DNA from: Dactylosporangium vinaceum
Lineage (GTDB): Bacteria; Actinomycetota; Actinomycetes; Mycobacteriales; Micromonosporaceae
Length of the DNA stretch: 64,000 nucleotides
Assembly: GCF_019904175.1 (NCBI RefSeq)
Contig: NZ_CP061913.1
Coordinates: forward strand, 9,362,001 to 9,426,000
Reading direction: 5' to 3'
Position numbers and translations under genes: made by a program. How positions within the stretch are numbered: the stretch's first letter is position 1; each line of letters starts with the position of its first letter. Positions 33,343 to 35,545 of the stretch are shown here, in pieces. The notes under the pieces were generated by a model. It was not told the DNA's origin. It searched no databases and was given only the letters and a program-made list of their open reading frames with translations.

Positions 33343-33705
33343 TCAGGCGGCGGCAACGGCCGTCTTCGCCACCTGGACCAGGCCGGTGAAGGCCTTCTCG
33401 TCGCTGACGGCGAGCTCGGCCAGGATCTTGCGGTCCACCTCGACGCCGGCCAGGCGCAGGCCCTGGATCAGGCGGTTGTACGTCATGCCGTTCGCGCGGG
33501 CCGCGGCGTTGATGCGGGTGATCCACAGCTGGCGGAAGTCACCCTTGCGGTCGCGACGGTCGCGGTAGGCGTACTGCATCGAGTGCAGCACCTGCTCCTT
33601 GGCCTTGCGGTACAGGCGCGAGCGCTGCCCACGGTAGCCGCTGGCGGTCTCCAGGACGGTGCGGCGCTTCTTCTGGGCATTTACTGCCCGCTTCACGCGT
33701 GCCAC
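33343..33705 (-). CDS. rplT: 50S ribosomal protein L20
   Basis: The 120-residue basic protein starts [20 protein letters not shown] and contains [20 protein letters not shown], both L20 signatures. It assembles early with 23S rRNA. In many bacteria it also represses its own operon by binding the mRNA, which could apply to the structured infC leader and spacer here. Confidence 0.98.
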
Positions 33706-33798: not shown

Positions 33799-33993
33799 TT
33801 ATCGGCCGAGCATCTTGTTGATGCGGCGGGTCTCCGACGGAGCGAGCTCCACGCTGCCGGTGAGGCGGCGGGTGCGCTTGCTCGACTTGACCTCGAGGAG
33901 GTGGCGCTTACCGGCGGGCTCGGCGAGGTACTTGCCGCGACCGGTGACCTTCACGCGCTTCTTCATCCCGGAGTGCGGTTTGAACTTCGGCAT
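33799..33993 (-). CDS. rpmI: 50S ribosomal protein L35
   Basis: This 64-residue basic protein starts MPKFKPHSGMKKRVKVTGRG and ends ETRRINKMLGR, as is normal for L35. It stands in the infC-rpmI-rplT operon. Confidence 0.98.
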   Translation of the reverse strand: MPKFKPHSGMKKRVKVTGRGKYLAEPAGKRHLLEVKSSKRTRRLTGSVELAPSETRRINKMLGR

Positions 33994-34214: not shown

Positions 34215-34832
34215 TCAGGCCTGGTCGGCGGTGACCGGCTCCGGCAGCTCGGCGACTGGTTCGCCCTCCCCGCCCGTGCCGTCTTCCGACTTCTCGCGGC
34301 GCTCGGTGGCCGCGGCCTTCACGTTCCGGTGCGGTGCCAGGACCATGATCATGTTGCGGCCGTCCTGCTTGGGCGAGGACTCGACGAAGCCCAGCTCCGA
34401 GATCTCCTCCGAGAGCTTGCGCAGCAGCCGGAAACCAAGCTCCGGGCGGCTCTGCTCGCGGCCACGGAACATGATCGTTACCTTGACCTTGTCGCCCGCC
34501 TTGAGGAACCGCACCACGTGACCCTTTTTGGTCTCGTAGTCGTGCGGATCGATCTTCGGGCGGAGCTTCATCTCCTTGATGACGGTCTGCTGCTGGTTAC
34601 GCCGGGCTTCCCGGGCCTTGAGCGCGCTCTCGTACTTGAACTTGCCGAAGTCCATGAGCTTGCAGACGGGCGGGCGGGCCATGGGCGCAACTTCAACCAG
34701 GTCCAGGTCCACGTCGGCGGCCAGCTGGAGTGCGCGCTCGAGCGGGACGATGCCCACCTGCTCGCCCTCCGGGCCGACCAGCCGGACCTCACGTGCCCGG
34801 ATCTGCTCGTTGATGCGTGGCTCGACGGTGAT
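34215..34832 (-). CDS. infC: Translation initiation factor IF-3, AUC start codon
   Basis: About 205 residues. The conserved N-terminus ([20 protein letters not shown]) extends upstream of the first GTG at 34757. The only start that fits is ATC at 34830-34832, which has GAGGAGG (34837-34843) four bases before it. There is no ATG, GTG or TTG in frame between them. A rare AUC/AUU start is the known autoregulation device of infC, since IF-3 rejects non-standard start codons. The C-terminal domain ([20 protein letters not shown]) is intact. A Glu/Gly-rich tail ends the protein. Confidence 0.93.
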
Positions 34833-34903
34833 GGGGCCTCCTCGATAGGTACTTCAACTCATGCGGCCGACCACACCCGCTTGAGGTCCGCGCTGGAGAC
34901 GCC

Positions 34904-34963
34904 AAAAACCCCCGCCGCGCATACGCAGGCGAGGGCCGCTCGACGAGTTGCCGGAGCAACTCG
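34904..34963 (-). promoter_or_regulatory. infC operon leader with attenuator-like hairpin
   Basis: On the minus strand CCCTCGCC (34935-34928) pairs with GGCGGGGG (34916-34909; one G-T pair). TTTTTGG follows, an intrinsic-terminator shape about 70 bases before the infC start. Just upstream CGAGTTG/CAACTCG (34944-34950, 34957-34963) forms a second perfect 7-bp stem. Such an arrangement suggests transcription attenuation of infC-rpmI-rplT, perhaps by L20. No match to a named RNA family was checked. Confidence 0.55.
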
Positions 34964-35059
34964 CCGGACCGGACCCGGCCGCCGTGTCAGCTGCGCGGGT
35001 GGGAGCTTGACGCTCCGCTTCGAACACCCCGATGTCGGTCGGGATGCGGTCGACGTCGT

Positions 35060-35545
35060 CTACTCTACCACGGCCTTGGGGTCAACCGCGGCCGGCGTCC
35101 GGCTGGCCGTGTGGAGAGCGCGCAGCGCCCGGGCCGCCTTGACCGCGTAGTCCTTGTCGGACATCTGCACCGCCATGACCGCGACCCGCTCGTCGTCCTG
35201 CAGGTCGAGGGTGAGCCAAGGGGCGCCGCGGCCGAACGTCACCGCGCGGACCACGTCCCACGGCAGGTCGTAGGAGCCGATGATGTTGCGCACCCGCACA
35301 CCCTGCGCGTCGGCCTCCACCCGGGGCCGGGTCATCAGCAGGATGCCGGCGGCGGCGCACAGGCCGAGGCCGATCATCGCCGCCTGGTCGCCGCGCTGGA
35401 AGTAGCCGGGGCCGTCGCCGGTCTTGCCGTGCAGCCCGAACGCGATGAGCGTGAAGACCACCACGACCACCACGGCGAGGACATAGGCGATGATCCGGGC
35501 CCGCTGCGGACGGGCGACGACGGGGGCCGATTGCACGCTGCTCAC
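35060..35545 (-). CDS. Membrane-anchored PH-domain protein
   Basis: This 161-residue protein has two transmembrane helices: IIAYVLAVVVVVVFTLIAFG (about 18-37) and AAMIGLGLCAAAGILLMT (about 55-72). A PH-like domain follows (VEADAQGVRVRNIIGSYDLP, FGRGAPWLTLDL). It is a well-known hypothetical beside hisG in actinobacteria; the function is unknown. Its 3' end may carry the promoter of the infC operon: TTGACC at 35085-35080 and TAGACG at 35062-35057, spaced 17, a weak match. Confidence 0.85.
   Translation of the reverse strand: MSSVQSAPVVARPQRARIIAYVLAVVVVVVFTLIAFGLHGKTGDGPGYFQRGDQAAMIGLGLCAAAGILLMTRPRVEADAQGVRVRNIIGSYDLPWDVVRAVTFGRGAPWLTLDLQDDERVAVMAVQMSDKDYAVKAARALRALHTASRTPAAVDPKAVVE

Follow-up and report, generated by a model that had tools for sequence, protein, structure and literature searches.

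In the leader of Bacillus subtilis, the L20 site is the H1/H2 junction and the terminator forms upon L20 binding, and this type of L20 RNA has been called narrowly distributed to Firmicutes (both in excerpts of PMC6097659). The L20 motif was also placed in Firmicutes and Thermotogales in a study that had Corynebacteriaceae and Mycobacteriaceae among its groups (excerpts of PMC3766115). As would be the case here, L20 controls its own operon, rpmI-rplT, in Escherichia coli (excerpts of PMC10931766); unlike here, that control is translational and relies on a pseudoknot together with a hairpin of the operon mRNA, with no terminator in an infC leader. The L20 r-leader of Deltaproteobacteria is likewise a predicted L20-binding RNA, and it is set apart from the present one by description only, having two G-C pairs and an AA dimer on a different scaffold (excerpts of PMC7247131). 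Furthermore, the infC 5′ UTR of Mycobacterium tuberculosis (326 nt; UTR/CDS of 2.6 and 4.9) resembles the present RNA as a long, abundant leader for which an L20-like control was suggested by its authors; compared by description, it comes without a described structure or terminator in the excerpts of PMC3207917. As for Streptomyces, the AUC start of infC and its autocontrol by IF3 have already been stated (excerpts of PMC5472188), so that two layers of control would act on the operon. No report of an actinobacterial L20 leader was found among the openly licensed papers searched, and a search by term inside PMC4681348, PMC8079986, PMC4046766, PMC3765725 and PMC13236596 did not find infC.

The leader analysed here is considered likely to be a diverged L20 leader that acts as a transcription attenuator of infC-rpmI-rplT, with L20 assigned as its ligand by homology. 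The preliminary description had proposed an actinobacterial L20-type transcription attenuator, which is supported by a class-wide core, by the enrichment of terminators and by the register of RF00558 (L20_leader) elsewhere in the phylum. Computation established the core together with its covariation and location, the enrichment of terminators and the register common with L20_leader.

Operon, leader and terminator in D. vinaceum

The window, a stretch of 64,000 nucleotides from Dactylosporangium vinaceum, carries on its minus strand infC, rpmI and rplT in this order, with a SpoU-type methylase gene next after rplT (Table 1). It occupies 9.36-9.43 Mb of a 12 Mb genome, and the named record closest to the IF3 of this genome is from Dactylosporangium (92%). 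The operon had been read as infC-rpmI-rplT from the outset, and the Pfam domains of all three genes bear this out. Regarding the gene start, ATC stood at the aligned infC start codon in 146 of 158 rows of relatives, an AUC start being class-wide, and in most of the other rows the match began a few codons later, with ATC or ATT just ahead of it; a standard gene caller would place this start wrongly. A PH-domain gene lies upstream (35060-35545, minus strand); with its end at 35060, it overlaps the hexamer predicted as −10 for the infC leader. In many leaders a hexamer of the type TAnnnT precedes the GACC strand at a constant short interval, most often 8 nt (62 of 186 leaders), and no −35 was found when looked for at normal spacing to the putative −10 TAGAGT. 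Transcription of the leader would be expected to start at about 35055. Elsewhere in the window, an FMN riboswitch (RF00050; 42557-42704, minus strand, 98.2 bits) was the sole Rfam match at gathering.

Table 1. Features of the infC-rpmI-rplT operon and its leader in the window
Feature	Position	Strand	Basis or remark
Putative −10 hexamer TAGAGT (TAnnnT type)	35062..35067	−	Inferred from sequence
P0 5′ strand GACCG, near the expected transcription start	35047..35051	−	Weak support
Conserved L20-type core, GAAGCGGAGC..GCUCCCACCCG..CGGGUCCGGUC	34967..35021	−	R1 match; alignments A1 and A2
AAG	35018..35020	−	Invariant: A1 49/49, A2 48/48
P1 5′ strand GGAGC	35012..35016	−	Pairs with 35002-35006
P1 3′ strand GCUCC	35002..35006	−	Pairs with 35012-35016
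P2 5′ strand ACCCG	34996..35000	−	P2 cells 96.2% paired in A2
P2 3′ strand CGGGU	34973..34977	−	Micromonosporaceae: complementary to terminator 5′ arm
P0 3′ strand CGGUC	34967..34971	−	Weak support
Spacer hairpin CGAGTTG/CAACTCG, lineage-specific	34944..34963	−	Fold and comparison
Intrinsic terminator hairpin	34907..34937	−	−21.2 kcal/mol
U-tract TTTTT, predicted 3′ end of attenuated RNA	34904..34908	−	Sequence; Streptomyces Scr1601 counterpart
Shine-Dalgarno of infC, GAGGAGG	34837..34843	−	Read from sequence
infC (IF3)	34215..34832	−	Pfam IF3_N and IF3_C; AUC start at 34832
rpmI (ribosomal protein L35)	33799..33993	−	Pfam Ribosomal_L35p
rplT (ribosomal protein L20), presumed effector	33343..33705	−	Pfam Ribosomal_L20

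On the minus strand, CGAGTTG (34963-34957), CTCCGG, CAACTCG (34950-34944) and TCGAGC precede the terminator, which consists of GGCCCTCGCC (34937-34928), TGCGTATGCGC and GGCGGGGGTT (34916-34907); positions 34908-34904 are all T, and GG follows. The GC stem with TTTTTGG that had been noticed about 70 bases before infC is thus present, its U-run (34908-34904) ending 72 nt before the AUC at 34832. The 71-nt stretch of the hairpins folded at −44.4 kcal/mol, compared with −31.0 (sd 3.3) for 200 dinucleotide shuffles, one of which was as good (z −4.0), and an energy scan gave the terminator hairpin a score of 28.7 (−21.2 kcal/mol, 5 T in 9). A simple terminator scan returned no sites because its loop limit was 8, the loop here being 11; moreover, the terminator was absent from the minimum free energy structure of the whole 286-nt leader, in which strands of the core take up its 3′ arm. 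Along with the upstream core, a terminator in this position is a conserved feature of the leaders, and a terminator-like hairpin (score ≥26) was found between the core and the start in 162 of 233 leaders, compared with a shuffle mean of 17.0. The seven-base stem CGAGTTG/CAACTCG is perfect, as had been described, but it belongs to a variable spacer hairpin that is not kept in the nearest relatives (L002, L003 and L111). The feature had been delimited to 34904-34963, and the conserved part (35021-34967), which falls outside and upstream of this interval, was missed.

Distribution and covariation of the core

The core has the architecture AAG-N-[P1]-C-[ACC..GGU]. A regular expression (AAG, stem, C/U-CCACC) matched 233 of 238 leaders, a set made up of 80 named loci, 57 loci from class and family searches, 100 fetched stretches and the window, in which some species may occur twice. 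Among those missed, L021, L032 and L061 were matched by the covariance model, and L189 and L217 had variant forms of the core, recognized by eye only. In the Phytohabitans leader L021, the core (1427-1483) lies 573 nt before infC, with a long G+C-rich insertion between them.

Covariance model R1, built from alignment A1 (49 sequences), matched the window at 35021-34967 with 51.9 bits (E 4.8e-11), and this infC leader was the one significant match across the 11.96 Mb of the organism's own genome, the next having an E of 0.11. At E≤1e-3, R1 gave 117 matches in 115 of 148 class genomes, a count that is partly by construction because this model, like model R2 described below, was built partly from genomes later searched; this does not apply to the single location per genome. 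In particular, 115 of the 117 matches shared the strand of infC and lay 81-239 nt upstream of its start. At E≤0.1, a match was found in 128 of the 148 genomes, IF3 itself being detected in 142 of them. Two matches, G111:C1:1175121-1175171 (E 5.4e-6) and G006:C133:33145-33193 (E 3.1e-4), were not upstream of infC, and they represent either a second L20-type site or chance. Outside the class, weak R1 matches lay before infC, by eye, in only 3 of 12 genomes. The covariance search over actinobacterial infC leaders, which had been suggested as a check in the preliminary description, thus recovered a class-wide core, and the conserved infC-leader core seems to be common to most of the class Actinomycetia.

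All cells of P1 were paired (100%) in alignment A1, where three of its four pairs varied on both sides; P2 was 98% paired and mostly invariant. A second alignment (A2, 48 sequences) included 22 leaders from other classes of the phylum, taken from the 25 of 40 other-class loci in which a core was accepted. The core picks in L262 and L284 were judged spurious, L274 and L275 turned out to be rRNA loci, and one family (f46) had no core among these 40 loci. The ten pairs of P1 and P2 were 97.2% formed in A2, with a covariation of 0.489 compared with 0.221 (sd 0.015) for shuffles and at most 0.167 for slid versions. Moreover, all five P1 pairs changed on both sides (pair 6:27 at the base of P1, for example, being GC in 33 sequences, AU in 15 and broken in none), AAG, ACC and the C that separates the helices were invariant, and the lengths of the P1 and P2 loops varied freely. 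The four GACC:GGUC pairs of P0 were formed in 85-96% of 177 distinct rows, with covariation at one pair, which weakly suggests a real helix between GACC near the start and GGUC after P2.

Two other explanations of the terminator bear on these data. Ribosome-mediated attenuation via a small upstream ORF is scarcely credible: the SD-like sites before ATG or GTG in 65 of 184 leaders would fit it, a count that says little because the core itself contains GGAG, but core lengths are even over the three frames (60, 63 and 72), the frame is not kept across the core and the P1 and P2 loops are free to vary in length. An ordinary unregulated terminator with no leader role, such as that of the upstream gene at 35060-35545, is considered highly improbable. 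A promoter further downstream would allow it, several infC promoters being described in Streptomyces (excerpts of PMC5472188); however, a covarying core precedes infC in most of the class, and the Scr1601 match presented below has the start and the end expected of a leader RNA.

Relation to L20_leader and Scr1601

Rfam, RF00558 included, had no match in the window leader, either at gathering (58.7 bits for RF00558) or at E≤5, nor did RF00558 match in any of 10 class genomes; the window leader, which falls short of the gathering score, is therefore treated as a diverged variant and not filed as a member. In other classes, RF00558 matched before infC, with 65.6 bits in L281 (cut-off 58.7) and below the cut-off in the others. 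Over 119 genomes of the phylum at E≤0.01, it gave 42 matches, one of them above the cut-off, of which 29 (in 29 genomes, including the 19 best matches) were upstream of infC and 13 elsewhere. Model R2, built from A2, gave 22 matches at E≤0.01, all before infC and many from its building sequences. All eight genomes with matches to both models had R2 starting exactly 5 nt inside RF00558, an offset that aligns AAG with AAG; five of these genomes contributed to A2, and G226, G268 and G303 were not used for R2. Furthermore, L276 was matched by both R1 and RF00558.

The RF00558 consensus (AAG, a, AGAAGC..GCUUCU, C, gCC..GGc) has the same topology as the A2 core and, comparing consensus with A2, its AAG-N-P1-C-P2 junction is present in the window leader. 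Both precede the same operon, run from AAG through a single base, P1 and a lone C to a P2 closed by CC/GG, and have an intrinsic terminator downstream of the P1/P2 junction. The present leader departs from RF00558 in opening P1 with G-C where the latter has A-U, in its variable P2, in the loss of the conserved loop and in its expression platform. The leaders L277, L281, L282, L288 and L294, from other classes, carry CGGCG in the P2 loop, as RF00558 partly does (gacgC), a feature apparently lost in the class Actinomycetia. L20 was named as the ligand because the topology and register of the core match RF00558 and the B. subtilis L20 site lies at the same junction.

The organism's own 23S rRNA was also searched for AAGNGG followed by CCnACC, and nothing was found at the presumed place of H40/H41. 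The same leader and attenuator might respond to another ligand (IF3, L35, a small molecule or other factor), which is unlikely: core topology and register match the L20 leader via intermediates in the same phylum, and strong core matches lie almost only before the operon encoding L20. On the side of another ligand stand the identification of L20 by homology, the 23S mimicry that was not found in that search, the RF00558 model not extending to the class Actinomycetia, and the control that IF3 already exerts on infC via its AUC start in Streptomyces (excerpts of PMC5472188).

The Streptomyces leader L025 matched RF02830 (Scr1601) with 169.1 bits at 1698-1915, with its core at 1745-1801, its T-run at 1910-1915 and infC at 2001, the match starting at AACGACC and stopping at the last T of the terminator T-run. 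Scr1601 appeared in 5 of 98 class genomes, all of the genus Streptomyces, and had no match in the window leader or the rest of its genome. As an orthologous leader, it shares with the window leader its place before infC, the R1 core and the end at the T-run, and differs from it in being restricted to Streptomyces and filed as an sRNA gene. In excerpts of PMC8388888, Scr1601 is given, citing Vockenhuber et al., as belonging to a set of 11 ncRNAs that were confirmed in S. coelicolor, and its S. ambofaciens homologue is predicted within a UTR. Since its bounds run from the start of the infC leader to the T-run and the homologue falls within a UTR, Scr1601 is best read as the terminated infC leader rather than as an sRNA gene. 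A mainly trans-acting role for the short RNA, in line with the sRNA entry for Streptomyces in Rfam and with the confirmed expression in S. coelicolor, is very unlikely: the RNA precedes infC and ends at the attenuator, it is homologous to L20 leaders of other classes, and the S. ambofaciens homologue is predicted inside a UTR.

Candidate antiterminators and proposed control by L20

Two comparisons with permuted pairs gave no signal. A free duplex search of upstream segments against the core end was no better than permuted pairs (−17.13 vs. −17.33), and neither was the P1 strand against the terminator arm in 184 leaders (−8.08 vs. −8.21), a result of the near invariance of the core strand; unrelated terminator arms were taken as the control in its place. 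The core 5′ strand was then complementary to the terminator 5′ arm in 67 leaders from 22 families, Micromonosporaceae and Streptomyces being left out, with a family mean of −9.81 for the duplex compared with −6.96 (sd 0.30) for 283 unrelated terminators. None of 200 control draws was as low, and 18 of the 22 families were below the control. Moreover, with registers chosen as those of best pairing, the unpaired N of AAGNGG lay opposite G as a C or U in 58 of 63 cases and opposite U as an A in two. On complementarity, a candidate antiterminator outside Micromonosporaceae and Streptomyces is well supported. The P2 strand paired worse than control arms in Streptomyces and other families, and the antiterminator figures for Streptomyces are unreliable because the finder chose the wrong hairpin in many of its leaders.

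Within Micromonosporaceae, the P1 strand paired more weakly with its own terminator arm than with controls (−6.40 vs. −7.62), and the P2 3′ strand paired somewhat better (−16.05 vs. −14.70, z −3.2, among related and non-independent sequences). The P2 strand GCCGGGUCC resembles the terminator 3′ arm GCCGGGGCC, and the Micromonosporaceae antiterminator is probably this strand. The antiterminator in the window's own lineage is weakly supported: the nascent folds of the window and of L017 contained none, that of the window keeping P1 and P2, so for the switch in D. vinaceum, as for L20 as the ligand and for the direction of control, we infer rather than observe. A single L20-binding core with different antiterminators per lineage (AAGNGGAG in most families and the P2 3′ strand in Micromonosporaceae) is tentatively put forward.

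In the proposed mechanism, the nascent RNA would fold the core, in which the invariant AAG and the single C flank the P1/P2 junction, presumably the equivalent of the L20 site in the Bacillus leader. With L20 in excess over free 23S rRNA, L20 would hold the core, the terminator (34937-34907) would form and RNA polymerase would stop at 34908-34904. With L20 scarce, part of the core would pair with the terminator 5′ arm, leading to read-through into infC. In most families the pairing part would be the core 5′ strand AAGNGGAG, and in Micromonosporaceae probably the P2 3′ strand, which nearly duplicates the terminator 3′ arm. Since AAGNGGAG belongs to the presumed site of L20, its bases would be contested between L20 and the terminator 5′ arm in most families.

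The leader would extend the B. subtilis-type L20 RNA to most of Actinomycetia, and it gives the Streptomyces “sRNA” Scr1601 a likely identity. If the lineage-specific antiterminators hold true, the L20 leader would be much more ancient and widespread than in the Firmicutes-centred view, with Scr1601 among its products. Furthermore, the leader may offer a reason for the abundance of the M. tuberculosis infC UTR, and it makes the way in which antibiotic producers control their ribosomal protein synthesis directly testable.
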